From positions 1-64,000 of the forward strand of contig JAMWCD010000005.1 in NCBI GenBank assembly GCA_023818965.1: a DNA stretch of 64,000 nt, written 5' to 3'. Below are positions 21,307-47,740 of the stretch, piece by piece. This stretch comes from Candidatus Omnitrophota bacterium. Lineage in GTDB: Bacteria; Ratteibacteria; UBA8468; B48-G9; DTJG01. The notes beneath the pieces were generated by a model, which had not been told where the DNA came from, ran no database searches, and worked only from the letters and a program-made list of their open reading frames with translations. Position numbers and translations under genes: made by a program. The stretch's first letter is position 1. Every line of letters begins with the position of its first letter.

Positions 21307-21391
21307 ATTTCCCCCTTTTTGATTTTTGAAACTTGAAATTGGCAATTATTTTAACACTGTTTGAAAATTTTTCAAGTGCACAAATTCAAAG

Positions 21392-28710: not shown

Positions 28711-31125
28711 ATGAAATTGTTCATGGGTCTGGCAATGGTTATTTTTATTTCTGGCTTTGTTTCTGCCTATGGATTTACAGTTGTAAAAGACGGAAAACCA
28801 GTGGCAAAAGTTGTTATCAGTAAGGCAGCATTTGATTCAACGCCAGGTTCATTATCAAGATATGCAAAATTAAAGCCCGAAGAGAAAATTAAGTTTGCAG
28901 CACTGGATTTGCAAAAATACATTGAAAAGATGTCAGGAGCAAAGATTGAAATTGTTTCAGATGATGTGGATGTTACTGGTAACATCATCTGTGTGGGTAA
29001 AAGTAATTTTACAAAGAATATCAAGGATCTTAATATTCCGTCAGGTCTTACAGTGGAAAGAAATGAAGAAGGGTACACAATCTTCTGCAGGAATAATGTT
29101 CTTGTTCTTGCTGGTAATGACCAGGGACCTTATTTTGGGACATATTACGCTGTTGCTGAATTTCTTAAAATGCTTGGTGTTAGATGGTTTATGCCTGGTG
29201 AATTTGGAGAACTTGTTCCAGTAAAAAATAATATTGAAATTGGACAGATGAATTTTACTGATAGGCCTGCATTCAGGGTTCGTTCCTGGTGGTGCAATGA
29301 ACCAGCAGATATGGCAGATCAGCATGCGTTATGGAAAATTCGCAATAAAATGACAATTTATGATAGGGATATAATTTGTATCCCCGGAGACAGTTGGTTA
29401 AGAAGATATCTTCCTGACCCAAAGTTAAAAGACACAAGACCTGAGTTATTTGGCAGAAACTTTGATGGAACTGTTAACCCGTATATGGCAAATCTGACAA
29501 ATCCTGAAACAATAAAAATTGTTGCTGATAAGGTCATACAGGAATTTAAGAAATCAGAAGAAAAAGGTGAAAGAATAAATTCAATTGGTTTTGCTCCTGA
29601 TGATGGTCTCCCAATGGACCACAGTCCAGAAACAATGAAATTGAATCAGGGCTTTTATGATGTTTTTGGGAGAGAAGGAGTTCCAACAGAACTTTCAATC
29701 AGTGAGGAATGGTTCAATTTTGTTAACAAGGTCACAGAGGAAGTTGTAAAAGTGTATCCTGATGCAATTATCACAACAAATGGATATGCAAACAGATCAT
29801 TACCACCAGAAGGAATAAAACTTCATCCAAATCTTGGTGTGATGGCTGCCTTTATCTGGGCTGACACATTAAAACCAGTGACAAGTCCAAAATCATGGCA
29901 GGGACAGGTAATGGGTGCTCAATTGAAACGATGGTGTCAGTTATGTAAACGGGTGTTCCTTTATGAATATAATCTGACAATGCTGGTGTCAGGTCTTACA
30001 CCTGTTCCACAGGTGAGAAAAACTGCGATCAATTATTCTCTTTTCAAGAAATGGGGGCTCATAGGTTTTATTAATGAGACGAAATTGCCATTTTTTGAGG
30101 AAGGCATTGTAACAAGATATATCAGGGCGCAATTGATGTGGAATCCAGATGCTGATCTCAACACACTGCTTGATGATTTTTATAAAAAATGGTATGGTCC
30201 TGCAGCAAAGCCAGCAGAAAATTTCTGGAATGCCATAGAAGAATGCCTTTTAGAAACACCACTGCTCGGGCATGAAGACAGAATTCTTCCTTTCGTTTAT
30301 ACAGGTCAACTCATTGATAATCTTGAAAGATATGTTTCTGAGGCAGAAAAACTTGCGAATACAGAAGTAATAAAAACCCATGTTCTTGTTGATCGTCTTA
30401 CTCTTGAGCATCTTAAGGCATATATGGCAATGAAGGATGCTGAATTTAATGCAAAATGGTCAGAAGCAGCAAAATTTACAGATAAAATGATTGAATGCAG
30501 ATTGGCTCTTAACAAAATCAGTCCTTTTCTTGCAATGCCACCTTCCCTGGCAGGAAGAGAAAGATACTATTCAGGTGACCATTATTTTGGAGTATTAAAA
30601 CGGAAAGCATTCTATCAAAAACTTGATGGTTTGACAAATGGCGAAACTGGAATTCTTGTGGCACTTGCTCCGAAGGAAGTAAAATTTTCCATTGATCAGT
30701 CAGGACTTGGTAAACATTTTCAGTGGTATTTACCTGATTTTGATAGAAGCAAATGGAGAACAATTGATACTACAAAACCATTTTACATTCAGGGATATCT
30801 GTCTTCAGATGGTATGCCATACACTGGAAAAATGTGGTATGTTTTTGATCTTGATGTACCTGCGAAATTTTCAGGAAAACCAATAAAATTATATGCTCCT
30901 TTTGTAACCTGTGAAGCATGGGTCTGGGTTAATGGTGAATATGCAGGTCATAGAAAATATCTTGAAGCATACATCAGTCCAGCAGAGATTGATATGGATA
31001 TTACACCTTTCATTAAATATGGCAAAAGGAATACAATTGCCGTCTGGGTAAGTACGGGTTTGAGTCCTGCACAGGCAACAGATGGTTTTCTTGGAAGATT
31101 GTTTTTGTATTCACCAGTTAAATGA
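28711..31125 (+). CDS. DUF4838-type secreted protein
   Basis: 804 aa; signal peptide; ALDLQKYIEKMSGAKIEIVSDD, GPYFGTYYAVAEFLKMLGVRWFMPGEFGELVP; EAWVWVNGEYAGHRKY. Confidence 0.75.
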   Translation: MKLFMGLAMVIFISGFVSAYGFTVVKDGKPVAKVVISKAAFDSTPGSLSRYAKLKPEEKIKFAALDLQKYIEKMSGAKIEIVSDDVDVTGNIICVGKSNFTKNIKDLNIPSGLTVERNEEGYTIFCRNNVLVLAGNDQGPYFGTYYAVAEFLKMLGVRWFMPGEFGELVPVKNNIEIGQMNFTDRPAFRVRSWWCNEPADMADQHALWKIRNKMTIYDRDIICIPGDSWLRRYLPDPKLKDTRPELFGRNFDGTVNPYMANLTNPETIKIVADKVIQEFKKSEEKGERINSIGFAPDDGLPMDHSPETMKLNQGFYDVFGREGVPTELSISEEWFNFVNKVTEEVVKVYPDAIITTNGYANRSLPPEGIKLHPNLGVMAAFIWADTLKPVTSPKSWQGQVMGAQLKRWCQLCKRVFLYEYNLTMLVSGLTPVPQVRKTAINYSLFKKWGLIGFINETKLPFFEEGIVTRYIRAQLMWNPDADLNTLLDDFYKKWYGPAAKPAENFWNAIEECLLETPLLGHEDRILPFVYTGQLIDNLERYVSEAEKLANTEVIKTHVLVDRLTLEHLKAYMAMKDAEFNAKWSEAAKFTDKMIECRLALNKISPFLAMPPSLAGRERYYSGDHYFGVLKRKAFYQKLDGLTNGETGILVALAPKEVKFSIDQSGLGKHFQWYLPDFDRSKWRTIDTTKPFYIQGYLSSDGMPYTGKMWYVFDLDVPAKFSGKPIKLYAPFVTCEAWVWVNGEYAGHRKYLEAYISPAEIDMDITPFIKYGKRNTIAVWVSTGLSPAQATDGFLGRLFLYSPVK

Positions 31126-32246: not shown

Positions 32247-33722
32247 TTGACAGAAAATTTGATGTATTGTAAAGTAATATCCCGTATGGAATCTTCTTTT
32301 TTTGCTCTCGGGACAATTTTTGTGCCGGTACTTGGTTGTATCACAATTCCTGTTGCTGCCCTTTTATCAAAAGGGTTCAGGAATCTGTGGGCGATGGTTC
32401 TTGCTACCATTACTTTTATTCTTCCTGTTTTCCTTATTCCAGCAGTACTTCAAAGTCCTTCGGGCGAAATCGTTTATAGATATCCATCAATTCTAAACCT
32501 TGAGTTCATTCTTCTTATTGATGGATTCTCAATCTTTGTTTCACTTGTTTCTTCCTTCATAGGGGCTCTCATAGTCCTTTATTCAATTGACTATGTTTCT
32601 CATAATGAGTTTCAGACAGAATATTATACGATGGTAATACTTTTTATTGGTTCTATGATGGGGCTGGTGTTTTCAGGGAATCTTATTTATATGTATCTTT
32701 TCTGGGAAATTGCCGCAATTTGCTCGTGGAGATTGATTGGATTTTATCGTGTTCCTTCCCATATCATCAAGGCAGATAAAGCGTTTCTTATTACATTCTT
32801 TGGTGCAGTGGTAATGCTTTTTGGTTTCATACAGATTTATGGTTCAACTCATACATTTGATATGACTGCAATGAGAACAGTTCCAGTATCATCTCTTGCT
32901 GTTTTTCTAATTCTTATTGGAATGTTTTCAAAATCAGCAACATTTCCTTTGCATACATGGCTTCCTGATGCTGGTGTTGCTCCATCAACAGTAACATCCC
33001 TTCTTCATGCAGCTGTGCTGGTAAAAATTGGTGTTTATGCTTTTGCTCGACTTTTCTGTTATACATTTAAAATCCCTGTTGAATGGAACATTGCAATTCC
33101 TGTTCTTGTTATGTTTTCAAGTATGGTTTCAGCAGGTGCAGCAATGGTTGAGAATGATATAAAAAGAATCCTTGCGCTTTCTACTGTGAGTCAAATCGGT
33201 TATATTTTCCTTGGTTTCTGGACAAAAACACTTACTGGAGTTGCTGGTGGAGCACTTTTTATTCTCATGCACGGTCTTGCAAAGGCAGGACTATTTCTTT
33301 GTGCAGGGATTATTGAGCATGGAACTGGGAAAAGAGATATCAGGGAACTTGGTGGACTGTTTACCAGTATGCCATTTACTGCAATAAGTTTTCTTGCGTG
33401 TATTCTTTCAGTTATTGGAGTTCCACCTTTTGGTGGGTTTTTTTCAAAATTTATGATGATTTCAGGAACAGTTGAAGCAGGTAGAACAGGAGTTGCCTCA
33501 ATGGGTTTGTTTGTTGCAGTGATGACAGCAATATACCTTTTCAGATTGTTTCATGCTGTTTTCTTTGGCGAAAAGAAAACAGATGGTCATGAAGGTACAT
33601 CCTTAATGGTAGGAATTGTTTTTGTTCTTGCTTTTTTATCACTTCTTGCAGGAATTTTTATCAGTATTCCTGGTAGTTTTGCCGAGGCGTCAGCATTTCA
33701 TCTACTGGAGAAATTCAAATGA
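32247..33722 (+). CDS. Proton-conducting antiporter-like membrane subunit (NuoM/NuoL/MrpD family)
   Basis: FWEIAAICSWRLIGFY, PLHTWLPDAGVAPSTVTSLLHAAVLVKIGVYAFAR, IKRILALSTVSQIGYIFLG. Confidence 0.9.
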   Translation: MTENLMYCKVISRMESSFFALGTIFVPVLGCITIPVAALLSKGFRNLWAMVLATITFILPVFLIPAVLQSPSGEIVYRYPSILNLEFILLIDGFSIFVSLVSSFIGALIVLYSIDYVSHNEFQTEYYTMVILFIGSMMGLVFSGNLIYMYLFWEIAAICSWRLIGFYRVPSHIIKADKAFLITFFGAVVMLFGFIQIYGSTHTFDMTAMRTVPVSSLAVFLILIGMFSKSATFPLHTWLPDAGVAPSTVTSLLHAAVLVKIGVYAFARLFCYTFKIPVEWNIAIPVLVMFSSMVSAGAAMVENDIKRILALSTVSQIGYIFLGFWTKTLTGVAGGALFILMHGLAKAGLFLCAGIIEHGTGKRDIRELGGLFTSMPFTAISFLACILSVIGVPPFGGFFSKFMMISGTVEAGRTGVASMGLFVAVMTAIYLFRLFHAVFFGEKKTDGHEGTSLMVGIVFVLAFLSLLAGIFISIPGSFAEASAFHLLEKFK

Positions 33723-35563
33723 GTAATGATTCAATTTTGCTACTTCCGATCATTTTGCCTGTTGTTTCAGGTATCATTTGTTTCTGTATTCCAGAGAGAT
33801 TTTTTAAGTTGAGAAATTTTCTTGCACTATTGAGTAATTTTGTATTGATACTAATCATATCAGGTCTCTGGCACTCAAAAACCATTTATTATGTTTCTGA
33901 CTGGTTTATGTCAACTGCAATTTTTTCTTTGAAAGCAGATGGATTCAGTAAATTTATCCTTCTGTGGATTTCAATTTTTAGTTTTCTTATCACGTTGTAT
34001 GCCTGGTCAAAAATGACAGGTTTAAAATCCCGTCAGTTCATTACATATCTTTTAATCACCTGTGGATTTGCGTGTGGTGCAGTATTAGCAAATACATTGC
34101 TTGTTCTACTATTTTTCTGGGAAGCACTTCTTGTTACCCTTTATCTTTTTATTGTTCTCGGGGGTGAAAATTCTTACAGGACAGCACTCAAAGCATTTGT
34201 TCTTGTTGGTTTCTGTGATTTTTGTTTTATTCTTGGTGCTGCGATTTACTGGAAAATTACTGGCTCTTTTGATTTTCCAGCAAAGCCGGTTCAGATTGAA
34301 GGACTTGCCATTTTAAGTTTTGTTATGATGATTATTGGGGTTACAGGTAAGGCAGGGGCTTTGCCTTTTCATACCTGGATTCCTGATGCTGCGATTGATG
34401 CTCCTGTGAGTTTTATGGCATTTTTACCTGGTGCTCTTGAGAAACTTATTGGTATCTATCTTCTTACAAGGGTTTGTTTTCAATTTTTCCATCTTATTCC
34501 TGGTAGTGGTTCATCAATAGGGTTGATGACGCTTGGTTCTTTAACAATTGTTATTGCAGTGAGCATGGCATTGATACAGAAGGATGTTAAACGGCTACTT
34601 TCATATCACGCAATCAGTCAGGTTGGCTATATGATTGTTGGTATTGGTACTGGAATTCCAGCAGGAATTGCTGGTGGAATTTTTCATATGCTCAACAATG
34701 CAATTTATAAATCAGCATTGTTTCTTGGAGCAGGGTCTGTGGAACATAGAACAGGTACCACTGATTTGAAATCACTTGGTGGTCTTTACAGCCAGATGCC
34801 TCTTACAGGTCTTTGCTTTGTAATATGTGCTGCAGCAATATCAGGTGTCTGGCCCTTAAATGGTTTTGTATCAAAGGAAATGATTATTCATGGTTCACTT
34901 GAAACAGGATACAAGATTTTTGCTATTGCCTGCTGGATTGGAGCGATTTTAACATTTGCTTCATTTTTGAAGGCAAGTCATGCAATGTTTTTTGGTGAGA
35001 AAAATAATAAATTTTCAAATGTGAAAGAAAATAATTTTTCAATTGTGTTTCCCATGGGGGTTCTCGCTTTACTATGCATTGGCTTTGGGCCTTTCAGCAG
35101 GATTCCTTTGAACGCAATTTCAAATTCCGTTGCGGTTGTATCAGGTCATGATTTTTCAACGCATGCTTTGAATCTGTTCAATCCTGTTTCAGGTGTAACA
35201 ATTTTGTGTCTTATTTTTGCATTTTTGCTTCACAGATACGGCTACCTTAAGAGTGGTAAAAAGGCATATCTTGCATCAGAGGTCGTACATAGATTGCCTG
35301 TTATTAATACTTTGTACAATCTTGCTGAGAGGAAAATATTTGATATTTACGAGCAGGGAATAAGATTTATCAGGGTATTTTCAATAGCACTTTATTATGG
35401 TTTTGATAGAACTGCTGATTGGTTATATGAACGGCTTGTTGTGGAATCAGGAGTTAAGGCAATAAATGCATTGCGGTCAATACACAGGGGATTTGTTTCA
35501 GGCTATGTCGCCTGGATTTTTGCAGGCATTATCATCATAATAATTTTCACCTTTGCATTTTAG
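33719..35563 (+). CDS. NuoL-like antiporter-type membrane subunit
   Basis: PFHTWIPDAAIDAPVSFMAFLPGALEKLIGIYLL; VKRLLSYHAISQVGYMIVG; long C-terminal helical extension. Confidence 0.9.
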   Translation: MSNDSILLLPIILPVVSGIICFCIPERFFKLRNFLALLSNFVLILIISGLWHSKTIYYVSDWFMSTAIFSLKADGFSKFILLWISIFSFLITLYAWSKMTGLKSRQFITYLLITCGFACGAVLANTLLVLLFFWEALLVTLYLFIVLGGENSYRTALKAFVLVGFCDFCFILGAAIYWKITGSFDFPAKPVQIEGLAILSFVMMIIGVTGKAGALPFHTWIPDAAIDAPVSFMAFLPGALEKLIGIYLLTRVCFQFFHLIPGSGSSIGLMTLGSLTIVIAVSMALIQKDVKRLLSYHAISQVGYMIVGIGTGIPAGIAGGIFHMLNNAIYKSALFLGAGSVEHRTGTTDLKSLGGLYSQMPLTGLCFVICAAAISGVWPLNGFVSKEMIIHGSLETGYKIFAIACWIGAILTFASFLKASHAMFFGEKNNKFSNVKENNFSIVFPMGVLALLCIGFGPFSRIPLNAISNSVAVVSGHDFSTHALNLFNPVSGVTILCLIFAFLLHRYGYLKSGKKAYLASEVVHRLPVINTLYNLAERKIFDIYEQGIRFIRVFSIALYYGFDRTADWLYERLVVESGVKAINALRSIHRGFVSGYVAWIFAGIIIIIIFTFAF

Positions 35564-35572
35564 GAGTGAAAA

Positions 35573-37051
35573 ATGTTTTTATTCATTTTTATTGCAGTGC
35601 CTCTTGTAGTTGCGGGATTTTTGCCCATTGCTTCAAGAGTTTCAAAGAAGTTTTTGCCTGATTTTCTTGCAAATCTATGCCTTGTTATTCTTGTTGCAGC
35701 AAGTATTACAACATTTAAACTCTGGCCTGGTGCAGGTAGTTTTTCACACAAGATTTTCTGGTTTGGTGATAGTTTGAATATATCTGTTGTTCTTGATGGA
35801 TTAAGTTTGTTAATGATTTTCATCATTTCATCCATTTCTCTTGCTGTTGGATTGTTTTCAATAGATTACATGGATAAATATGGTTCTCGTGCAATTTATT
35901 ATGCAATGTTTCTTGTGCTTGTAGCAGCAACAAATGGAATTGTTCTTACTTCAGATTTGTTTACAATGTATATTTTTATTGAAGCAGCAGGTCTTGCATC
36001 ATATGGTCTTGTTTCACTTGGAAAAACAAGGGATTCAACTGAAGGCGCATTTAAATATCTGATATTATCCGCAGTGGCTTCTTCATTTATTCTTCTTGGT
36101 ATTGCATTAATATTTCTTACCACAGGAACAACAAACATAAAAGAAATTGCATCTGTGTCACGTCTTGTTCCAAAATTGAGCGTTATTCTGTTTCTTGCTG
36201 GCTTTGGTTTGAAAAGTGGGCTTGTTCCATTTCATTTCTGGATGCCTGATGCCTACACTGGTGCACCTGCAGTGTTACCTGCTTTAAGTTCAGGTGTTTT
36301 TGTCAAGGTTGCAGGAGTTTACGCAATGAGCAGGGTATTTTTCAATGTGATTGGTTTCAGTTATAATATTTCATCCTTGCTTGTTTATCTCGGGATAATT
36401 TCTATACTGGTAGGTGCATTGCTTGCACTCGGTCAGACGCGATTAAAGAGGTTGCTTGCATATTCCTCAATCAGTCAGGTTGGCTATATTTTTCTTGGCA
36501 TAGGAACTGGAACACCACTTGGAATTATTGGGGGGCTTTTGCATCTTTTTTATCATTCAATATTTAAATCACTTTTGTTTTTGAATGCAGGTGCAGTTGA
36601 ATATGCGACACAAACAGATGAAAGTACCGAACTTGGTGGACTTGGTGCAAAAATGCCATTTACTTCAACAACAAATGTCATTGGATTACTTTCAGCAGCA
36701 GGTGTTCCACCACTTAATGGGTTCTGGAGTAAATTGATTATTGTGATTGCCCTTATTCAGATAAAAATGTATTTTTATGCATTCATCGCAATATTTGCAA
36801 GTGTTTTAACCCTTTGGTATCTACTTTTAATTCAGAGACGGGTCTTTTTTGGAAAACTCAAAGAGCAATGTGAAAATGCTGGTGAAATTCCATTCTGGAT
36901 GAATCTGTCATTGGTTGGACTTGCTCTTGCTTGTTTCTGGACAGGTGTGGTTTTTGCACCTGTGATTTTGAAATGGATTTTACCTGGAGCAAATGTCCTT
37001 GTTGAAGGAATTAGAAGTTCAATCAATACATTTATTATCGGAGGAAGTTAA
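35573..37051 (+). CDS. NuoN/MrpD-like antiporter-type membrane subunit
   Basis: PFHFWMPDAYTGAPAVLPALSSGVFVKVAGVYAM; LKRLLAYSSISQVGYIFLG. Confidence 0.9.
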   Translation: MFLFIFIAVPLVVAGFLPIASRVSKKFLPDFLANLCLVILVAASITTFKLWPGAGSFSHKIFWFGDSLNISVVLDGLSLLMIFIISSISLAVGLFSIDYMDKYGSRAIYYAMFLVLVAATNGIVLTSDLFTMYIFIEAAGLASYGLVSLGKTRDSTEGAFKYLILSAVASSFILLGIALIFLTTGTTNIKEIASVSRLVPKLSVILFLAGFGLKSGLVPFHFWMPDAYTGAPAVLPALSSGVFVKVAGVYAMSRVFFNVIGFSYNISSLLVYLGIISILVGALLALGQTRLKRLLAYSSISQVGYIFLGIGTGTPLGIIGGLLHLFYHSIFKSLLFLNAGAVEYATQTDESTELGGLGAKMPFTSTTNVIGLLSAAGVPPLNGFWSKLIIVIALIQIKMYFYAFIAIFASVLTLWYLLLIQRRVFFGKLKEQCENAGEIPFWMNLSLVGLALACFWTGVVFAPVILKWILPGANVLVEGIRSSINTFIIGGS

Positions 37052-37524
37052 TGGAACCTTTGATACTGCTGGCAGTCATGATTTTTTCAGGTCTTGCAAT
37101 ATTTTTGAAGGATTTGTTAAAGGCAGTGATATGCCTGATGATTTCCAGCATATTCCTTGGGATTATCTTTTTCAAACTTGGTGCTCCATATGCAGGTGTT
37201 TTTGAGATTTCAGTTGTTGCAGGGCTTGTCATGGTTCTTTTTATTCTCACAATTTCTCTTGTTGGTGGAGAGGATTTTGTAAAAGAACCTGCTATTCCAG
37301 TAATATTTTTTCTTATTCTTCTTGGAATTTTTTCTCTTCTTGCGGTCTTTGGTTTTAAGGTTTCTTTTATTCCCTCATCCGCAACTGGTGATAAGTTTTT
37401 AAACTTTGGGCAGGTGTTGTGGGCAGGCAGGACATTTGATATGGTAGCGCAAATCAGTGTTATATTCGCTGGTGTTTTTGTTATTCTTGCCATTGTCAGC
37501 AGAAAGGGGAAAAATGGTAAATGA
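37051..37524 (+). CDS. NuoJ-like membrane subunit
   Basis: LKAVICLMISSIFLGIIFFKLGAPYAGVFEISVVAGLVMVLFILTISLV, matching the NuoJ pattern. Confidence 0.8.
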   Translation: MEPLILLAVMIFSGLAIFLKDLLKAVICLMISSIFLGIIFFKLGAPYAGVFEISVVAGLVMVLFILTISLVGGEDFVKEPAIPVIFFLILLGIFSLLAVFGFKVSFIPSSATGDKFLNFGQVLWAGRTFDMVAQISVIFAGVFVILAIVSRKGKNGK

Positions 37525-37831
37525 ATCACTGAATCATTGTTTTATGTATGCTTACGCAGTTTTTGTTCTTATTTTTATTGGGTTTTATTGCCTTATTGCA
37601 AGAAGAAATATGGTTAGATTATTAATCGGACTTGAAATCATTTCAAAAGGGATATGTTTACTCATTATTTCTGGTTCCTATCCATCAAAGATATTAACGG
37701 CACAGGCACTTGTAATAACAGTGATAGTCATTGAAGTGTGTGTGATGGCGATTGGGCTTTCTCTTGTGATAAGGGCGTATCATCAATCGGAAAGCATTGA
37801 TATACGGGATTTTTCAAAACTAAAGGGATAA
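37514..37831 (+). CDS. NuoK-like membrane subunit
   Basis: YCLIARRNMVRLLIGLEIISKGICLLIIS; VITVIVIEVCVMAIGLSLVIRAY. Start ATG 37514 preferred. Confidence 0.85.
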   Translation: MVNESLNHCFMYAYAVFVLIFIGFYCLIARRNMVRLLIGLEIISKGICLLIISGSYPSKILTAQALVITVIVIEVCVMAIGLSLVIRAYHQSESIDIRDFSKLKG

Positions 37832-37835
37832 AAAA

Positions 37836-38216
37836 ATGGAAAGATCTGGTATTTTATTATCGGTTCCAGTCGCATTTGTCATTTTTGTGATACTGCTGGC
37901 ATGTTTTTATATTTTTGCAGGAAGGTTTTCATCGCATTTTAAGAAAAGCAAAGAAAAAGTTTCAACATATGCCTGTGGTGAGGATATTCCTGGAATTAAA
38001 TTTCAATTTGGATACCAACTATTTTTTGTGTTTGCCTTATTTTTTACAATCATGCATGTTACAGCACTTGTTATTGCCACACTTCCATCAATTTCGCCTG
38101 TTGTTTATTTTGGGATTTTTTATCTTGCAGCAATATTTCTTAGTGTATTAAGCATGGTTGTTTACAGGGATAATGATACAGGTGACAATACAACTGGAGA
38201 AGCAAATAATGATTGA
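37836..38216 (+). CDS. NuoA-like membrane subunit
   Basis: 126 aa; three TM segments; VSTYACGEDIPGIKFQFGYQLFFVFALFFTIMHV in the NuoA position. Confidence 0.75.
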   Translation: MERSGILLSVPVAFVIFVILLACFYIFAGRFSSHFKKSKEKVSTYACGEDIPGIKFQFGYQLFFVFALFFTIMHVTALVIATLPSISPVVYFGIFYLAAIFLSVLSMVVYRDNDTGDNTTGEANND

Positions 38217-38640
38217 GAAACTGACAAAATGGGCAAGATTAAAATCTCCATGGATTCTTCATCTCAATACAGGGGCGTGCAATGCCTGCGATATTGAGAT
38301 TGTTGATGCACTAACACCTCGTTTTGATGTTGAAAGGTTCGGGATATTGCTGAAGGCAACTCCAAGGCATGCTGATGTTATTGTTTGTACTGGTCCTGTA
38401 ACAAGACAGACAAAAGATAGGATTATAAGAATATACGAGCAGACACCTGACCCAAAATTTGTTGTTGCTGTTGGCGCATGTGCAATGTCAGGTTGTGTGT
38501 ACAGGGGTGCTTACAATATCATTGGGGGGATCGACCAGGTGATTCCCGTGGATATTTATGTTCCAGGATGCCCTCCAAGACCAGATGCAATTATTGATGG
38601 CATAGTGAAATTATTAAAGAAACTGGAGCAGGCAAAATGA
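38209..38640 (+). CDS. NuoB-like / group 4 [NiFe] hydrogenase small subunit
   Basis: NTGACNACDIE (CxxC, hydrogenase-like), VGACAMSGC, VPGCPPRPDAIIDGI. Start ATG 38209. Confidence 0.9.
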   Translation: MIEKLTKWARLKSPWILHLNTGACNACDIEIVDALTPRFDVERFGILLKATPRHADVIVCTGPVTRQTKDRIIRIYEQTPDPKFVVAVGACAMSGCVYRGAYNIIGGIDQVIPVDIYVPGCPPRPDAIIDGIVKLLKKLEQAK

Positions 38641-39110
38641 ACCAGCAGGAATTGATTGAAAAAATTAAGAATGAACTCGGTGATAAAATTCTTGAAATAA
38701 AAAGTCCATCAGCAAGAAGAATTTTTTTAACGACATCTACTGAAAATCTTGTTGATGTTATAAAAAAACTAAAGGATTGTTTCTCTTTTCATCATCTTTC
38801 CACAATTTCTGGAGTTGATAATTTAAAGGAATTTGAAATTCTCTATCATCTGGCAAATAACATTGCATCCCTGACAGTCAGAGTTTCTATCAGCAGGGAA
38901 AATCCTGTTGTTCCAACAATATGCAGTGTAATACCTGGTGCAATTTTGTATGAAAGAGAAATTCAGGATTTGCTCGGAATAAAGGTTGATGGTATTCCTG
39001 ACCCAAGGCGGCTGGTGCTTCCTGATGACTGGCCTGAAGGAAATTATCCATTGAGAAAGGACTGGAAATACCAACCACCTGAAGAAAAAATTCCAGGAGA
39101 GAAAAAATGA
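38637..39110 (+). CDS. NuoC-like (30 kDa) hydrogenase subunit
   Basis: PGAILYEREIQDLLGIKVDGIPDPRRLVLPDDWPEGNYPLRKDW signature. Confidence 0.92.
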   Translation: MNQQELIEKIKNELGDKILEIKSPSARRIFLTTSTENLVDVIKKLKDCFSFHHLSTISGVDNLKEFEILYHLANNIASLTVRVSISRENPVVPTICSVIPGAILYEREIQDLLGIKVDGIPDPRRLVLPDDWPEGNYPLRKDWKYQPPEEKIPGEKK

Positions 39111-40288
39111 AAAAAATTACAATACCCATTGGTCCCCAGCATCCTGCTTTAAAAGAGCCGATAAGTTTAAGAATGACGATTGAAGGTGAAGTTATTAAAG
39201 ATGCTGACATACGACTTGGATATAACCATCGGGGTATAGAGAAACTGGCTGAAAGTAAAACATATATTCAGAATATCTATCTGATGGAAAGAATCTGTGG
39301 TATTTGTTCCCATTCCCACACAACCTGTTACGTTCAGGCAGTTGAGGCACTGTGTGGACTTGAAGTCCCAAAAAGGGGTTTGTACATTAGGACCCTTGTA
39401 TCTGAACTTGAAAGGATTCACAGCCATTTGTTATGGTTAGGAGTTGCAGCGCATGAGGCAGGATTTGATTCATTGTTTATGTATACGTGGAGGGATAGAG
39501 AAGTTGTAATGGATTTACTGGAAATTATTTCTGGTAACAGGGTTCATTATGCAATCAATACAATTGGTGGCGTCAGAAGAGATATTAGTGAGCAACAGAA
39601 AGAAAAAATTCTTGAAGGAATTGAATTTTTGAGAAAAAGAACAGAATATTACACAAATCTCGGAACAACAGAACCAACCTTTGTCGCAAGAATTTCTGGT
39701 GTTGGAAAACTACCAAAGGAAAAGGCAATTGAATTGTGTGCTGTTGGACCAACATTACGAGCATCTGATGTTGCATCAGATATAAGGAAGGATGACCCAT
39801 ATGCTGTTTATGATGAAATACCGTTTGATGTGTGTACTGCTGATACATGTGATGTCCTTGGTAGGGTTGTTGTGAGAGTAAAGGAACTTATAGAGTCATA
39901 TAAAATTGTGGAATTTGTTATAAAAAATCTTCCAGCAGGTGAGATTAAAATTAAAGCACCGAGAAAGGTTCCAGAAGGAGAAACAGTAAGCAGATATGAA
40001 GCACCAAGGGGTGAAAATATTCATTATGTGAAAAGTAATGGAACAGACAAGCCAGAAAGATTGAAGGTTAGGGCACCCACCCTTGCAAATTATCCTGCAA
40101 CAATAGAAATGCTAAAAAATGGGTTTGTTGCTGATATTCCATTGATTTTTGCTGCGATTGATCCGTGTATATGCTGTGCTGAAAGGGTTGTTGAACTGAT
40201 TGATGTAAAAAGTGGCAGGTCTGATATTATGACATTTTCTGAGATAAAAAGAAAATATTTTTGCGAGAAAAAAAGGGAAACATTATGA
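39107..40288 (+). CDS. NuoD-like / group 4 [NiFe] hydrogenase large (catalytic) subunit
   Basis: ERICGICSHSHTTC (39296-39307 CGIC) and DPCICCAER (40160-40186); NiFe-site cysteines and C-terminal tail for proteolysis both retained. Confidence 0.93.
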   Translation: MKKITIPIGPQHPALKEPISLRMTIEGEVIKDADIRLGYNHRGIEKLAESKTYIQNIYLMERICGICSHSHTTCYVQAVEALCGLEVPKRGLYIRTLVSELERIHSHLLWLGVAAHEAGFDSLFMYTWRDREVVMDLLEIISGNRVHYAINTIGGVRRDISEQQKEKILEGIEFLRKRTEYYTNLGTTEPTFVARISGVGKLPKEKAIELCAVGPTLRASDVASDIRKDDPYAVYDEIPFDVCTADTCDVLGRVVVRVKELIESYKIVEFVIKNLPAGEIKIKAPRKVPEGETVSRYEAPRGENIHYVKSNGTDKPERLKVRAPTLANYPATIEMLKNGFVADIPLIFAAIDPCICCAERVVELIDVKSGRSDIMTFSEIKRKYFCEKKRETL

Positions 40289-41268
40289 GTATTTTGAAAT
40301 CATTGATTTATCTCTTGATATATCCAGGGCTTTTATTTCTTTTTGTGTATTCAACGTTTTGCGAATGGTTTGACAGGAAACTTTATGCTCGATTACAGAA
40401 TAGAGTTGGTCCTGCCTATACAGGTCGTGCTGGAATACTTCAACCTGTCGCTGATTTTTTCAAATTACTATTTAAGGAAGATATTATTCCAGAAAGAGCA
40501 GACAGGGTGATTTTTTCTTCGCTTCCTGTTGTCGGGCTTGCCATTGTGTTGACAGCAGGATTGTATCTACCATTGTGGAACATTGATGTTTCCATTCCTT
40601 CATATAATTCATTTCAGGGAGACATCATTGTTGTTCTTTATCTTTTGAGTTTACCAACACTGATATTTTTCCTTGCAGGATGGCATTCAACGAACTTTTT
40701 TTCAACACTTGGTGGAGTCAGGGTATTAACAATGTTATTCGGTTATGAAGTACCTTTGTTTCTTGCAATACTGAGCCCTGCAATTGTTGCTGATTCATGG
40801 CGACTTGCTGAAATTGCGGATTTTTATCAAAAATGTCCATTTCTTCTTCTGTTTCAGTTAACTGGCTTTTTTGTCGCTGTAATTGCACTTCAGGCAAAAC
40901 TTGAGCGAACACCATTTGATATACCGCATGCTGAAACTGAAATTGTTGGAGGTACATTTACTGAATATTCTGGGAAAAAACTGGCATTTTTCAGGTTAAT
41001 GACAGATATTGAGATGGTTGTTGGAAGTGGATTGATTGCTACTGTTTTCATGGCAGGTTTTCCAGGTAATGCTTTTGTATCTTTTGTGAATTTTATAATA
41101 AAAACTCTCATTGTAATTTCAATACTTTCACTTATCAGGGCTGCATGTTCAAGAATCAGAATTGATCAGATGGTGAATTTTTCGTGGAAATGGTTAACAC
41201 CACTTGCTGTTATGCAACTTTTCATAAGCATTCTTGTAAAAGGAGTATTCTGGAGGATATTGCAATGA
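40285..41268 (+). CDS. NuoH-like membrane subunit
   Basis: RLQNRVGPAYTGRAGILQPVADFFKLLFKEDIIP; ERTPFDIPHAETEIVGGTFTEYSGKKLAFF. Start ATG 40285. Confidence 0.93.
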   Translation: MSILKSLIYLLIYPGLLFLFVYSTFCEWFDRKLYARLQNRVGPAYTGRAGILQPVADFFKLLFKEDIIPERADRVIFSSLPVVGLAIVLTAGLYLPLWNIDVSIPSYNSFQGDIIVVLYLLSLPTLIFFLAGWHSTNFFSTLGGVRVLTMLFGYEVPLFLAILSPAIVADSWRLAEIADFYQKCPFLLLFQLTGFFVAVIALQAKLERTPFDIPHAETEIVGGTFTEYSGKKLAFFRLMTDIEMVVGSGLIATVFMAGFPGNAFVSFVNFIIKTLIVISILSLIRAACSRIRIDQMVNFSWKWLTPLAVMQLFISILVKGVFWRILQ

Positions 41269-41666
41269 AACTGAAACCTGCTGCTTTCATACCAGAATTG
41301 TTGAGACATATTTTCAAAAAACCTGCAACAGTCAGATATCCTTTTGAAAAACTTAAAGTTCCAGATGATTTCAGGGGTACACCTGTGTTGAAACCTGAAC
41401 TCTGCATTGTATGCAGGTCATGTGTAAGGGATTGTCCTGCATTTGCCATTGAAATCACGACATTATCGGAAGAAGAAAAAAAATATAAAATGACAATTCA
41501 CAATGATAGATGTATTCACTGCGCTCAATGTGTTGAGTCATGTCCGACAAAAGCACTTTTTATGGACACAGAATTTGAAATTGCCACTGATAGTAGATTG
41601 AAACTTAAGGCAGAATACATATATTCAAGGCAGAAAAAAACCGACCAGAAGTCCCAGCAAACATAA
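41265..41666 (+). CDS. NuoI-like 2x[4Fe-4S] ferredoxin subunit
   Basis: CIVCRSCVRDCP and CIHCAQCVESCP. Start ATG 41265. Confidence 0.92.
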   Translation: MKLKPAAFIPELLRHIFKKPATVRYPFEKLKVPDDFRGTPVLKPELCIVCRSCVRDCPAFAIEITTLSEEEKKYKMTIHNDRCIHCAQCVESCPTKALFMDTEFEIATDSRLKLKAEYIYSRQKKTDQKSQQT

Positions 41667-42173
41667 ATGCGTTCCTGGAAAAAAGACCTGGCTGAGAAAT
41701 TGAAAAATGCCAGGAAAATTGCAATTTTGGGCATAGGTAATCTTGATTTATGCGATGATGCAGCAGGTGCAATTGTCGCTGAAAGAATCCAGAAAATTAT
41801 TGGTGGAAAAAATAATGCTTATATTGCGGTGTTTCCCTGCTATGAGGCACCTGAAAATTTTACATCTCCTGTAAAAAAAGAAAAACCAACTCATATTGTG
41901 ATGGTAGATTCCTGTTTATCAGGAAGGAAACCTGGTTCAATTTTTTTACTAATGCCTGATGAAATAAAAAATGTGGATGTTTCTTCTCATAAATTGCCTC
42001 TATATTTGCTATCTGATTATCTAAAAAATGAGACAGGTGCTGAAATTATTATCATTGGCATTGAACCAGAATTACTATGCAAGGGAAACTTTTTAAGTAA
42101 GCCAGTTGAAAGTGCAGTGAATGAAATTTCTGATTGGTTTTCAGAATTTTTTAAAAAATCCTTTCAAGTGTAA
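41667..42173 (+). CDS. hycI: Hydrogenase maturation endopeptidase (HycI family)
   Basis: AILGIGNLDLCDDAAGAIVAERI, VMVDSCLSGRKPGSI, SSHKLPLYLLSDYL; directly downstream of the hydrogenase structural genes. Confidence 0.82.
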   Translation: MRSWKKDLAEKLKNARKIAILGIGNLDLCDDAAGAIVAERIQKIIGGKNNAYIAVFPCYEAPENFTSPVKKEKPTHIVMVDSCLSGRKPGSIFLLMPDEIKNVDVSSHKLPLYLLSDYLKNETGAEIIIIGIEPELLCKGNFLSKPVESAVNEISDWFSEFFKKSFQV

Positions 42174-42201: not shown

Positions 42202-42462
42202 ATGCATGAAATGAGTGTGATTGAAAACCTTATTCCTTTATTAAAAAGGATTTGTGAAGAACAAAAGGCATACAGGGTGGTTTCAGTTCAACTCAGGATC
42301 CATCCCTATAGCTGTCTTGACCAGGAGAATTTGAATTTTATGTTTTCCTGCATTGCTGAAAATGAACCACGGTTGAAAGATACAAAAATCAAAGTGGTAA
42401 GAAGCAGCGAAAATCAGGAAAGAGAATATATTGTGGATAATGTTGAACTCGAAATTGAGTAA
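42202..42462 (+). CDS. hypA: HypA-like nickel chaperone, short form lacking the CxxC...CxxC zinc domain
   Basis: MHEMSVIENLIPLLKRICEEQKAYRVVSVQLRI is HypA-like; only 86 aa, ends NQEREYIVDNVELEIE with no CxxC pair; between hycI-like and hypB. Confidence 0.8.
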   Translation: MHEMSVIENLIPLLKRICEEQKAYRVVSVQLRIHPYSCLDQENLNFMFSCIAENEPRLKDTKIKVVRSSENQEREYIVDNVELEIE

Positions 42463-42474
42463 AGGAGACCAATT

Positions 42475-43137
42475 ATGAAGATAAAAAAAATCGAAATTGG
42501 AGAAAATCTTTTTGGAAAAAATGATGAGATAGCAAGAGAAAATAGTGAATTACTGCAAAAATACAATATTCTCTCGTTGAATCTTATGGGTAGCCCTGGT
42601 TCAGGAAAGACATCAATTCTTGAATTAACAATAAGAAAACTAAAGGAAAAAAATATTACCTGTGGTGTTATTGAAGGAGATATTGCAGGAACATTTGATA
42701 GTGAAAGAATTTCTCTCCTTGAAGTCCCTGTGGTTCAAATAAATACAGGTGGAGCATGCCATCTTGAGGCAATGATGATAAAAAAGGGGATGGAACAATT
42801 GACATTGAACGAAATCAAAGTACTTTTTGTTGAAAATGTTGGGAATCTCGTTTGCCCTGCTGAATTCAAACTCGGGATTAAATATAATGTCACTGTTGCA
42901 AGTATCACAGAAGGAGAAGAAAAACCATTGAAATATCCATTGATGTATTCAGTATCACAACTGGTATTACTGAACAAGATTGATTTATTAAAGGCGATTG
43001 ATTTTGATACTGAAAAATTTTATCAGTATGCAAGGAAAACAAATCCTGATATCAAAATTATTCCTGTTTCTGGTAAAACAGGCGACAGCATAAATCAGTT
43101 TGTTGATTTTATTGAAGAGCAACTTTTAATACAATGA
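42475..43137 (+). CDS. hypB: Hydrogenase nickel incorporation GTPase HypB
   Basis: GSPGSGKTS P-loop; NTGGACHLEA; VENVGNLVCPAEFKLG; LLNKIDL. Confidence 0.95.
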   Translation: MKIKKIEIGENLFGKNDEIARENSELLQKYNILSLNLMGSPGSGKTSILELTIRKLKEKNITCGVIEGDIAGTFDSERISLLEVPVVQINTGGACHLEAMMIKKGMEQLTLNEIKVLFVENVGNLVCPAEFKLGIKYNVTVASITEGEEKPLKYPLMYSVSQLVLLNKIDLLKAIDFDTEKFYQYARKTNPDIKIIPVSGKTGDSINQFVDFIEEQLLIQ

Positions 43138-45425
43138 AAAGGGTAAAAATTTTTGTTTCAGGAATTGTACAGGGTGTTGGCTTCAGACCATATGTTTATC
43201 GACTGGCAAAAAAATACAATATTTGTGGTTTTGTAAAAAACACCATTGATGGAGTTATTATTGAAGCACAGGGACATGATACCAGTATTGAAGCATTTTC
43301 ATCATTGATTAAGGAAAAACCTCCAGCACTTGCAAAGATAAAGTTGTTTACTGTACAACCTGTTTCATTAAAAGATGAAAAGGTCTTCAGGATTGAAAAA
43401 AGTAATGGTTCAAAACAATATATGATTGAAATCCCCCCTGATTTTGCCATTTGTCCTGAATGCAGAAAGGAAATCCTTGATGAAAAAGACAGAAGATACC
43501 ACTATCCATTTACAAATTGTGTGAATTGTGGACCACGATTCACTGTGATAAAAAGATTGCCCTATGATAGAAAAAATACAACAATGAATGAGTTCAAAAT
43601 GTGTCCTGAATGCAAAGAAGAATATTTTGACCCTGAAAGTAGAAGATTTCATGCCCAGACAAATTGTTGCGAAAAATGTGGCCCGCAAATGTTTCTTGTG
43701 AATGGGGCAGGCAAAGTCATTGCTGAAAAATATTCAGCAATTGAATATGCAGGGAAATTGCTTCAGCAGGGTAGCATTGTTGCTGTTAAGGGTATTGGCG
43801 GATTTCATCTCGCCTGCAATGCATTTTCTTTACATTCTGTAAGAAAACTCCGTGAAAGGAAAAACAGGGAAGAGAAACCATTTGCTCTTATGGTCAGGAG
43901 CATTGAAACTGCAAAAAAATACTGTAAAGTCACACAGGAAGAAGAAAAATATCTTACTTCTTCATCGGCTCCAATTGTTCTTGTTGAAAAAATTGTGAAT
44001 ATTGATGCTTTTGATGTCATTGCACCAGATAACAAATACCTTGGGATTATGCTTCCTTATTCAGGAATACATGTATTGCTTTTTGAAGCAGGTTTACTTG
44101 AAATGCTTGTGATGACCAGTGGAAATATTTCAGACCAGCCAATATGTTTTGATAATGAAAGTGCATTCAGAAAACTTAATAACATTGCGGATTTCTTTTT
44201 GATGCATGATAGAGAAATTTTTTCAGGATGTGATGATTCAGTGATGAGGGTCTTGCCAGATAAAAGCCCACTGATTATAAGAAGGTCAAGAGGTTTTTCT
44301 CCAGAATCAATGAAAATTCCTTTTTTCGCAAAAAAAACAATTTTTGCCTGTGGTGGTGATATGAAAAACACATTCAGTTTTATGAAAGAACACCTGCTTT
44401 ATACAGGTCATCATATGGGGGACCTTGATGAGCCGTCAACAATAGATGCATATGTCAGGTCAGTAAAAAAATATGCAAACATTTTGAAACTTGAACCAGA
44501 AATTGTTGCTTATGACGCGCATCCTGATTATTTATCAAGCGGTCTTGCTACTTCAGACGAATTTTTTAAAAATGCAGTCAGAATACCTGTGTTTCATCAT
44601 CATGCTCACATTTGTTCCTGTATGGTTGAAAATGGCATTGTGGATGAAAAAGTCATCGGTCTTGCTTTTGACGGAACTGGATATGGTCAGGATGGTTCAT
44701 TATGGGGTAGTGAATTTTTATTGTGCGATTACAGAACATTTCAACGGCTTGCTCACTTAAGATATGTAAAACTACCAGGCGGAGAAAAAGCAATAAAAGA
44801 AATATGGAGAATTGCTTTTTCATATCTTTTTGACGCATTTGAAAATGACGCCTTCAGTATTTCAAAAAAGATACTAAAAAAAATAGACGATGGTAAAATC
44901 GAAATTTTGAAAACAATGATAGAAAAGAACCTTAACAGTCCATATTCCTGTGGGCTTGGAAGATTTTTTGATGCAGTAAGTTGCCTGTGCGGGTTGAAAA
45001 TGAACGTAAATTACGAAGGTCAAGCAGCAATTCAACTTGAATCAGCAATGAAACAAAATGCAAGTTCCAGTGGTTATGATTATGAAATTAAAAATGAGGC
45101 AGGCATTCTCATTATTGACCACAGGGAGATTATTAGTTCCATAGTAAATGATATTATCAATGGGACTGAGACAGGAGAGATTTCTTTTAAATTTCATCGA
45201 ACTGTGGTAAACTTTGTCATTCAGGTATGCAAAATTCTTAGAGAGAAAACAGGTGTTTCAAAGGTTGTTCTCTCAGGAGGTTGTTTTCAGAATATTTTCC
45301 TTTCATTACACATTAAAAATGAACTTGAAAAAAATGGGTTTGTTGTTTATGCTCATAAAACACTGCCTCCAAACGACGCCTGTATTTCGGCAGGTCAGTG
45401 TGCGGTTGCAAATTTTTTAATTTAA
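43134..45425 (+). CDS. hypF: Carbamoyltransferase HypF
   Basis: Acylphosphatase-like N-terminus (GIVQGVGFRPYVYRLAKKY), paired zinc-finger Cys motifs, YrdC-like and Kae1-like (AFDGTGYG) regions. Confidence 0.96.
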   Translation: MKRVKIFVSGIVQGVGFRPYVYRLAKKYNICGFVKNTIDGVIIEAQGHDTSIEAFSSLIKEKPPALAKIKLFTVQPVSLKDEKVFRIEKSNGSKQYMIEIPPDFAICPECRKEILDEKDRRYHYPFTNCVNCGPRFTVIKRLPYDRKNTTMNEFKMCPECKEEYFDPESRRFHAQTNCCEKCGPQMFLVNGAGKVIAEKYSAIEYAGKLLQQGSIVAVKGIGGFHLACNAFSLHSVRKLRERKNREEKPFALMVRSIETAKKYCKVTQEEEKYLTSSSAPIVLVEKIVNIDAFDVIAPDNKYLGIMLPYSGIHVLLFEAGLLEMLVMTSGNISDQPICFDNESAFRKLNNIADFFLMHDREIFSGCDDSVMRVLPDKSPLIIRRSRGFSPESMKIPFFAKKTIFACGGDMKNTFSFMKEHLLYTGHHMGDLDEPSTIDAYVRSVKKYANILKLEPEIVAYDAHPDYLSSGLATSDEFFKNAVRIPVFHHHAHICSCMVENGIVDEKVIGLAFDGTGYGQDGSLWGSEFLLCDYRTFQRLAHLRYVKLPGGEKAIKEIWRIAFSYLFDAFENDAFSISKKILKKIDDGKIEILKTMIEKNLNSPYSCGLGRFFDAVSCLCGLKMNVNYEGQAAIQLESAMKQNASSSGYDYEIKNEAGILIIDHREIISSIVNDIINGTETGEISFKFHRTVVNFVIQVCKILREKTGVSKVVLSGGCFQNIFLSLHIKNELEKNGFVVYAHKTLPPNDACISAGQCAVANFLI

Positions 45426-45437
45426 AACGGAGATTTT

Positions 45438-45662
45438 ATGTGTCTTGCAATACCAATGAAGGTAATAAGTAAAAAAGGAAATACTGCAATTGTTGACCTT
45501 GACGGCGTAAGAAGACAGATTGATATTTCTCTTGTCAGTAGAGTGAAAATTGGTGATTATGTTATTGTTCATGCTGGCTTTGCGATACAGAAATTGAAAA
45601 AGAAAGATGCAGAAGAAACTATTGCCTTACTCAAAGAGGTGAATAGTGAAATACATCGATAG
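45438..45662 (+). CDS. hypC: HypC/HybG chaperone
   Basis: MCLAIPMKVI N-terminus; GDYVIVHAGFAIQKL. Confidence 0.95.
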   Translation: MCLAIPMKVISKKGNTAIVDLDGVRRQIDISLVSRVKIGDYVIVHAGFAIQKLKKKDAEETIALLKEVNSEIHR

Positions 45663-46740
45663 TTTCAGGGATACAAATGCCATCAGGGGACTTGTTTCAA
45701 AGATTCATTCGGTGGCAGGAAAAATAGGTAAAGAAATTGTTTTGATGGAGGTTTGCGGAACGCATACCATGGCTATAGCCAGGGCAGGTTTGAGACAACT
45801 ACTACCAGAAAATGTAAAGTTAATTTCTGGACCAGGATGTCCTGTGTGCGTATCACCAAACTCATTTATTGATAAAGCCATTGCAATCAGCGAATTGAAA
45901 AATACTATTGTGACCACCTTTGGAGATATGTACAGGGTACCATCAGGCAATGGTTCACTTGAGAAACAGCATAGCAGGGGAGCAAGGATTGAGATTGTTT
46001 ATTCACCTTTTGATGCCATAGAAATCGCAAGGAGAAAACCAGAAAATAATGTTGTTTTTATTGGTGTCGGCTTTGAGACAACTGCACCTGTTATTGCAAG
46101 TGTTATTAAATACGCAAAACAGGAGAAAATAAAAAATTTCCTGGTTCTTGCGGGAAATAAAATAATTCCACCAGCAATGGAAATTCTTGTCAGTGATGTA
46201 CACCATCATCTGGATGGATTTATATGTCCAGGGCATGTGAGTGTAATTATTGGTTCAAAACCATACGAGATTTTTCCTGAAAAATACAATATTCCTTGTG
46301 TAATTTCTGGTTTTGAAGCATGTGACATACTTCAATCAATTTTATATTTACTTGAAATGATCGCAGGTATGGAAAAAATATCAGTGAAAATTCAATATAC
46401 AAGATGTGTTGACCCGGAAGGAAATATCAAAGCAAAGAAAATAATGAATGAGGTTTTTTCTGTGTGTGATAGTGAATGGAGAGGAATTGGTTTAATTAAA
46501 TCAAGCGGGCTTGCCATCAAAGATGAATACAAACAATATGATGCAGAATATATGCTTGATGTTAGTGTAAATATCAGTCATGATAGGCATGGTTGCATTT
46601 GCGGGGATGTTTTAAAAGGAATAAAAAGACCTGTTGATTGTATTTTCTTTAAAAAAGTATGTACACCGGAAAATCCTGTTGGACCATGTATGGTCTCTTC
46701 AGAAGGAACTTGTGCTGCTTATTATGCCTATGAAAAATGA
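45646..46740 (+). CDS. hypD: HypD
   Basis: MEVCGTHTMAIARAGLRQLLPENVKLISGPGCPVCV; FIGVGFETTAP; overlaps hypC. Confidence 0.96.
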   Translation: MKYIDSFRDTNAIRGLVSKIHSVAGKIGKEIVLMEVCGTHTMAIARAGLRQLLPENVKLISGPGCPVCVSPNSFIDKAIAISELKNTIVTTFGDMYRVPSGNGSLEKQHSRGARIEIVYSPFDAIEIARRKPENNVVFIGVGFETTAPVIASVIKYAKQEKIKNFLVLAGNKIIPPAMEILVSDVHHHLDGFICPGHVSVIIGSKPYEIFPEKYNIPCVISGFEACDILQSILYLLEMIAGMEKISVKIQYTRCVDPEGNIKAKKIMNEVFSVCDSEWRGIGLIKSSGLAIKDEYKQYDAEYMLDVSVNISHDRHGCICGDVLKGIKRPVDCIFFKKVCTPENPVGPCMVSSEGTCAAYYAYEK

Positions 46741-47740
46741 AACAATATTGATTTCGCACGGTGCAGGTGGAAAACAAACAAGAAAACTTATTGAGCAAAT
46801 AATTTTGAAATATTTTTCTGACAAAATTTTATTACCATTACCTGACGCCGCCACAGTTAATATCACAGGTGTAGAAATTTGTTTTACAACTGATTCCTAT
46901 GTTGTAAACCCTGTGTTTTTTCCGGGTGGCGATATTGGAAAACTGGCAATATGTGGAACAATCAATGACCTTGCTGTTTCTGGTGCAATACCGCTGTTTA
47001 TTTCCTGCGCAATGATCATTGAAGAAGGTTTCAGTTTTTTGATGTTTGAAAAAATTTTAAAATCAATGTCAAAAATTGCAAAAAAAACAGGTGTAAGGAT
47101 TGTTACTGGAGATACAAAGGTTGTTGACAGAGGTAAGGGAGATGGGATTTTTATTACAACAACTGGCATTGGTTTAAAATTTAAAAATGTGCAACTTGGG
47201 AAACAGTTTATTAAAAAAGGAGATGCAGTTATTATTGGCGGTGTACCCGGGATGCATGAACTTTCAATCATATGTGCGAGAGAAAATATCAAATTCAAAA
47301 CAGGACTGAAAAGTGATTGTGCTCCTTTACATCAAATGATTGAAGAAATTTTTGGTGTTTCAAAAAAAATTAGATTTATGAGAGATCCAACAAGGGGAGG
47401 AGTATCTGCAGTGTTAAACGAAATTGTTTCTGGTGCTGATTTTGGAATTGAAATTTATGAGGACAAAATTCCATTAACAAAGCAGGTTCGTTCACTATGT
47501 GAGATACTTGGTTTTGACATACTTAATCTTGCAAGTGAAGGAAACGTAGTAATTATTGCGGATTCGAAAGATGCAAACAGTATTGTCCGTACAATGAGAA
47601 AAAATCCAGCTGGAAAAAATGCATCAGTGATAGGATTTGTGACAGATGAATTTTGCGGGAAGGTCATATTGAAAACAAAATTTGGTTCTTCAAGATTTAT
47701 TGAGATGCCTGCTGCAGGTCAACTGCCGAGGATTTGCTGA
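46724..47740 (+). CDS. hypE: HypE
   Basis: ILISHGAGGKQTRKLI; DPTRGGVSAVLNEI; C-terminal PRIC. Start near ATG 46724 preferred over the 46634 ORF start. Confidence 0.95.
   Translation: MPMKNETILISHGAGGKQTRKLIEQIILKYFSDKILLPLPDAATVNITGVEICFTTDSYVVNPVFFPGGDIGKLAICGTINDLAVSGAIPLFISCAMIIEEGFSFLMFEKILKSMSKIAKKTGVRIVTGDTKVVDRGKGDGIFITTTGIGLKFKNVQLGKQFIKKGDAVIIGGVPGMHELSIICARENIKFKTGLKSDCAPLHQMIEEIFGVSKKIRFMRDPTRGGVSAVLNEIVSGADFGIEIYEDKIPLTKQVRSLCEILGFDILNLASEGNVVIIADSKDANSIVRTMRKNPAGKNASVIGFVTDEFCGKVILKTKFGSSRFIEMPAAGQLPRIC

Follow-up and report, generated by a model that had tools for sequence, protein, structure and literature searches.

The window analyzed here, a 64,000-nt stretch of contig JAMWCD010000005.1 from a Candidatus Omnitrophota bin (1.38 Mb, 65% complete), carries at 32247–41666 of its + strand eleven contiguous open reading frames (ORFs) that would encode a membrane-bound group 4 [NiFe] hydrogenase. 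The genes form one operon in the order antiporter-like subunits LM1, LM2 and N3, then J, K, A, B, C, D, H and I, with no spare ORFs between them (Table 1; all coordinates are positions in the window). The hycI gene follows immediately after I, and a full set of hyp genes (hypA, hypB, hypF, hypC, hypD and hypE) comes next, extending to 47740.

The operon and its catalytic subunits

All eleven same-strand genes listed in an initial annotation of this DNA are present, and its observation that E, F and G are missing from the set holds. The ATGA-type overlaps it described are exact at five junctions (LM1/LM2, B/C, C/D, D/H and H/I); at the remaining junctions the genes overlap briefly or are separated by ≤9 nt, and the starts were amended for K (37514), B (38209) and perhaps LM1 (ATG 32286 instead of TTG 32247). 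Ten of the eleven subunits matched their families above the curated cut-offs of Pfam (Proton_antipo_M three times, Oxidored_q3, q2 and q6, Complex1_30kDa, Complex1_49kDa together with NiFeSe_Hases, NADHdh, and Fer4 for I), the sole exception being A. The J and K calls are thus borne out by PF00499 and PF00420, with the NuoJ-like subunit also passing the MbhD family (29.0 vs a cut-off of 27.2), and LM2 spans the whole NuoL profile (TIGR01974, aligned over 6–629 of 630).

As in other group 4 enzymes, the large and small subunits are homologues of NuoD and NuoB accompanied by a NuoH-like anchor and antiporter subunits. The L1 pattern of group 4 large subunits, C[GS][ILV]C[AGNS]xxH, is matched by D (CGICSHSH at 39296). 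The L2 pattern, [DE][PL]Cx[AGST]Cx[DE][RL], was tested with the [AGST] position relaxed; the ligands and flanks of DPCICCAER fit it, with a Cys at the relaxed position, as in Mrp-linked enzymes. The coordinates first given for these two motifs are exact, and the proximal-cluster CxxC noted in B corresponds to CNAC. The four nickel ligands of D and the CxxC of B are conserved in all examined members of the clade described below, B having the hydrogenase-type CxxC, not the CC of complex I, in 25 of 25. The best match of D in the Protein Data Bank (PDB) is MbhL (6cfw, E 2e-91), with HycE ranking ahead of complex I, and that of B is MbhJ (6cfw, E 1e-51), in keeping with the initial assignment to group 4. 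HycE aligns across the same region as the C-terminal extension of D, and the MbhL chain in 6cfw stops at the corresponding R.

The quinone residues of complex I (Nqo4 numbering) are replaced in 25 of 25 clade members, H38 by Lys and Y87 by Gly. No UbiA-family gene was found across eight genomes from the genus (controls were positive in 14 of 14), and the futalosine-pathway gene PF02621 is likewise absent from all eight; full-length RnfC was found in four of them. The loss of the Nqo4 residues and the absence of UbiA and PF02621 genes point to H+, rather than quinone, as the electron acceptor. Because D carries both nickel CxxC pairs and B its CxxC, while the quinone residues are replaced and quinone-synthesis genes are missing, the window enzyme is, judged by its sequence, a [NiFe] hydrogenase of group 4 in which each of the eleven Nuo-type subunits is represented. 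A reading of the locus as Ehr, a hydrogenase-related complex, was rejected since D retains its nickel ligands.

Table 1. Features of the hydrogenase operon and its maturation genes.
Feature	Position	Strand	Basis
Antiporter-like subunit 1 (LM1), 491 aa	32247..33722	+	PF00361, E 2e-62
Antiporter-like subunit 2 (LM2), 614 aa, long C-terminus	33719..35563	+	PF00361
Antiporter-like subunit 3 (N3), 492 aa	35573..37051	+	PF00361, E 5e-68
NuoJ-like, 157 aa	37051..37524	+	PF00499, 35.0 bits vs cut-off 33.2
NuoK-like, 105 aa	37514..37831	+	PF00420, E 3e-23; two membrane glutamates retained
NuoA/ND3 homologue, 126 aa	37836..38216	+	PF00507 sub-threshold, orthologue profiles
NuoB/MbhJ-like small subunit, proximal [4Fe-4S]	38209..38640	+	PF01058; CNAC at 38278-38289
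NuoC-like, 157 aa	38637..39110	+	PF00329, E 2e-32
NuoD/MbhL-like catalytic subunit, 393 aa	39107..40288	+	PF00346 and PF00374
L1 motif CGIC, first Ni-ligand pair	39296..39307	+	L1 pattern
L2 motif DPCICCAER, second Ni-ligand pair	40160..40186	+	relaxed L2 pattern
C-terminal extension of D, predicted HycI-removed	40187..40285	+	HycE and MbhL comparison
NuoH-like membrane anchor, 327 aa	40285..41268	+	PF00146, E 7e-84
NuoI-like 2x[4Fe-4S] ferredoxin subunit, 133 aa	41265..41666	+	Fer4_7, E 1e-12
hycI, large-subunit maturation protease	41667..42173	+	PF01750
hypA-like, without zinc-site CxxC pairs	42202..42462	+	PF01155, 1-66/112
hypB	42475..43137	+	PF02492
hypF	43134..45425	+	PF22521, PF07503, PF17788, PF00708
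hypC	45438..45662	+	PF01455
hypD	45646..46740	+	PF01924, E 3e-146
hypE, C-terminal PRIC present	46724..47740	+	AIRS and AIRS_C

A NuoA-bearing bacterial clade and its core phylogeny

Loci with the gene order of the window come from its genus and family (L034–L037, L041, L042 and L044), from an ‘Acidobacteria’ bin (L039), from a relative at class level (L046) and from further phyla (L079–L081 and L172–L175). Genome counts rest on matches to D, with gene order verified in the fetched loci only; on that basis, one phylum has relatives in 9 of 10 genomes and another in 3 of 40. The phylum to which the ‘Acidobacteria’ bin (RA.bin134) belongs has them in 27 of 297 genomes, and a search begun from the Promineifilum contig L040 showed them in 51 of 396 genomes of the Chloroflexota class that includes Promineifilum. 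A contig search with D as the sole query returned 8 loci, and a plasmid search yielded 4a enzymes, a seven-subunit Azospirillum hydrogenase and complex I. Two further NuoA-bearing [NiFe] types, B and C, are found in the Promineifilum class (L152–L160 with L166–L170, and L161–L165 with L171). Type B has the order J-K-L-N-A-B-C-D-H-I-hycI, with two antiporters; type C has the order J-J-K-L-M-N-A-B-C-D-H-I, and its D terminates at the L2 motif (DLCxACADR), so that processing by a protease is not expected. In the genus, five of eight genomes also show, as long matches, another group 4 hydrogenase that is Mrp-linked (order H-B-C-D-Mrp-I, D 44–46% identical), and two family-level relatives (L100 and L101) additionally encode a canonical complex I.

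Other observations concern relatives of these genes. The HypA-like proteins of this lineage are short (about 86–90 aa) and their zinc-site CxxC pairs are missing, despite the nickel hydrogenase, both in the window and at L033–L035, L037, L038 and L044, and also at L041, L043, L047 and L048. At L056 (G047) and L119 (G032), D homologues without nickel cysteines lie on the complex I side of the D tree; these loci have other gene orders and are Ehr-like.

NuoA is usually regarded as specific to complex I. The Oxidored_q4 (PF00507) score of subunit A, 19.2 bits, is below the cut-off of 23.3. Subunit A is nevertheless the sole PF00507 match in the whole genome, and 11 of the 13 members of its orthologue set match that family. 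Profiles built from the orthologues and searched against the whole PDB matched NuoA/ND3 exclusively, in 22 of 22 matches for the first profile and 23 of 23 for the second (best E 1.6e-4). AlphaFold2 modelled A poorly (pLDDT 65 and 75, pTM about 0.42), and although Foldseek ranked ND3/NuoA chains at the top for these models, its E-values were above 1; neither was used as evidence. An A gene is adjacent to 38 group 4 D genes, all of them from the clade formed by the window type and the Chloroflexota types, and stands beside none of the 33 other group 4 D genes checked; the two clade loci without A are contigs that end before it. By profile comparison, then, A is a real NuoA/ND3 homologue despite its sub-threshold score, and the original call stands.

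To place the core subunits, we compared B, C, D, H and I with complex I and with other group 4 hydrogenases identified by gene order (Ech-like, Coo-like, Mbh-like, Mrp-linked and 4a). The trees are unrooted, MbhL in the D tree is the one archaeal group 4 enzyme among their sequences, and support is given as UFBoot/SH-aLRT. In the tree of all five subunits, the window type and the Chloroflexota types B and C form one clade (100/99), and all other sampled group 4 hydrogenases fall on the opposite side (100/97), with complex I adjoining the NuoA-bearing clade. The split persists after removal of long branches (100/99) and without H (97/88), and it recurs in single-gene trees from a smaller sample (B 83/86, D 88/62, H 99/98). 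The strongest complex I signal is carried by H, which groups with NuoH of complex I in the last of these trees. Forcing the clade together with the Mrp-linked hydrogenases was rejected (p 0.015), as was forcing it together with the Mrp-linked and 4a enzymes (p 0.035). The bacterial family thus adjoins complex I more closely than do the other hydrogenases compared; the initial annotation had proposed the enzyme as possibly informative for the transition between the two. Since the trees are unrooted, the family is described here as adjacent to complex I, and not as its ancestor.

The membrane arm and a proposed mechanism

The three antiporters tell a different story from the core. They pair one-to-one with the antiporters of Mrp-linked hydrogenases (100, 100 and 99), not with NuoL, NuoM and NuoN; LM2 groups with the Mrp-linked set at 100 and N3 at 96–99. 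An antiporter of type C groups with NuoM (99), and one from types B and C groups with NuoN (93); type C, with its NuoM/N-like antiporters and a D ending at L2, may be closest to complex I. Trees of K and J were poorly resolved, the sequences being too short. All three antiporter units of the window retain the TM5 glutamate and the membrane lysines. The initial description of a complete complex-I-like membrane arm needs correction, since the antiporters are not orthologues of NuoL/M/N, although the A, J and K calls hold. Because the antiporters group with Mrp-linked hydrogenases while the core adjoins complex I, the window enzyme is, on phylogenetic grounds, a mosaic in which a NuoA-bearing core adjacent to complex I is combined with a row of antiporters common to Mrp-linked hydrogenases; this is most simply read as an exchange of the antiporter module.

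Taken together, it is quite likely that the operon encodes an eleven-subunit, membrane-bound, energy-converting group 4 [NiFe] hydrogenase whose core and NuoA belong to a complex-I-adjacent bacterial clade and whose antiporters are of the Mrp-linked type. Several points weigh against this assignment. In the smaller sample, nesting of the clade with Mrp-linked and 4a enzymes was not rejected (p 0.118), single-gene support is weak for B and D, and the lack of a root and of archaeal sequences other than MbhL bears on every placement. The antiporter placement also makes it doubtful that J and K are orthologous to those of complex I; they may not be. Finally, the case is built from sequences, and ferredoxin is the presumed partner by virtue of subunit I and of characterized relatives. 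A further reading, put forward only tentatively, is that the NuoA-bearing bacterial clade represents a surviving stem lineage of complex I, and that the window type later swapped antiporters with Mrp-linked hydrogenases. A core with NuoA and NuoH would then have existed in a [NiFe] hydrogenase before nickel was lost and quinone reduction gained, and NuoM/N-type antiporters would already have been in place, in Chloroflexota type C, before nickel loss.

The enzyme is most likely ferredoxin-linked and ion-pumping, with direction, ion and stoichiometry assigned provisionally. Electrons would pass from reduced ferredoxin through the two [4Fe-4S] clusters of I and the proximal [4Fe-4S] cluster of B to the NiFe site of D, at which H2 would be formed from protons, and the unit of NuoH, A, J and K would couple the reaction to three subunits of antiporter type moving H+ or Na+. 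Hyp proteins would assemble the active site and HycI would trim D. Operation in reverse, with H2 driving ferredoxin reduction, may also be possible. By general energetics, the span from ferredoxin to H2 pays for about 1–2 ions per H2. With a normal gradient, the four transport sites therefore cannot all transfer an ion in every turnover; the pump sites might be used in part.

The origin of complex I from hydrogenases is a long-standing question for which this enzyme is useful. A clade that combines NuoA with a nickel site, beside complex I, lets phylogeny establish the order in which NuoA was gained, nickel lost and quinone reduction acquired, and opens the same three transitions to biochemistry; given its wide spread as judged by D matches (27/297, 51/396 and 9/10 genomes), cultivable hosts probably exist. 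An enzyme with three antiporters and a small redox span is also relevant to the relation between the number of pumps and stoichiometry.

Elsewhere in the window, a membrane pyrophosphatase (H_PPase, E 5e-260) at 19252–21345 on the − strand is another ion pump in the region. Three DUF4838 glycoside-hydrolase-like proteins within 31 kb (171–2585, 7053–8897 and 28711–31125) suggest polysaccharide use. Two secreted-looking proteins (21442–25686 and 53373–54944), one of which is an M14 zinc carboxypeptidase, terminate in duplicated calcium-binding repeats that resemble dockerin, with no Pfam dockerin match in either at E 0.001.

Alternative readings and known systems

The closest published precedent is Hfo, an archaeal eleven-subunit Fpo-like [NiFe] hydrogenase of Bathyarchaeia with relatives in Ca. 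Methanomethylicus and Pyrodictium, for which the same evolutionary conclusion on complex I was drawn and reversal, H2-driven ferredoxin reduction, was proposed (Loh, Herve and Brune 2021, PMC7886697). A comparable cluster is present in a cultivated representative of Bathyarchaeia (PMC10477458). Hfo was assigned to HydDB group 4g, which is described as a loose class whose function is not known (PMC5037454). That the window enzyme is a bacterial branch of Hfo is a credible alternative, if one that falls short of probable: both have eleven Nuo/Fpo-type subunits, intact L1/L2 cysteines, no NuoEFG or FpoFO and a proposed link to complex I. By its description, which is the basis of our comparison, Hfo has its genes in Fpo/Nuo order; in the window the antiporters come first, in the order antiporters x3-J-K-A-B-C-D-H-I, and are of the Mrp-hydrogenase type. 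Among the sampled bacteria, the window enzyme does not fall inside a well-described group of identical gene content, although the archaeal Hfo has the same subunit set. In the open-licence literature we encountered no account of this bacterial clade, of how its genes are ordered or of its mosaic antiporters, and the clade is apparently undescribed; because Hfo is published, the window enzyme is best regarded as a bacterial variant of a kind already known, not as categorically new.

It is also conceivable, but unlikely, that the locus is a chimera in which a hydrogenase of the Mrp-linked type secondarily acquired NuoA and NuoH from complex I, in which case it would tell little about the transition. 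The affinity of all three antiporters and the concentration of the complex I signal in H would fit such a history, whereas the core still groups with complex I when H is omitted, and the complex-I-type antiporters of the Chloroflexota types agree better with a swap of antiporters in the window type.

That the enzyme is simply an ordinary Mrp-linked group 4g hydrogenase, as carried by relatives and within the same genus (for example L045 and L043), appears improbable. D is 43–49% identical to the Mrp-linked enzymes, which share orthologous antiporters, intact [NiFe] ligands and nearby maturation genes. Their gene order is different, however, they have Glu where the window D has Lys at position 38 (Nqo4 numbering), they lack the NuoA found here, and the window operon leaves no room for ORFs encoding the small Mrp subunits; the two also fall in separate clades whose joint grouping was rejected, and most genomes of the genus contain both.

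A ferredoxin:quinone oxidoreductase, that is, an eleven-subunit complex I without E/F/G bearing residual cysteines, would share the subunit set, NuoH and NuoA, and is rejected as extremely improbable in view of the four nickel ligands, the CxxC of B, the dedicated hycI and hyp genes, the loss of His38 and Tyr87 and the missing quinone genes. Complex I and the eleven-subunit NDH-1 resemble the window enzyme in their subunit types, including NuoA, and in a core adjacent in the trees; they differ in having lost the nickel ligands, in the CC of NuoB, in their quinone residues H38/Y87 and in their antiporters.

Mbh of Pyrococcus furiosus (4d, 6cfw), the best PDB match for D and B, shares [NiFe] chemistry and a link to ferredoxin. 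Mbh has an Mrp Na+/H+ module and no NuoA, and a cluster of Mbh order (L097) lies on the far side of the core tree. Formate hydrogenlyase/Hyf (4a, 7z0s) is likewise a [NiFe] enzyme with HycI-type C-terminal processing; it differs from the window enzyme in its fused C and D subunits, its formate dehydrogenase module and its lack of NuoA.

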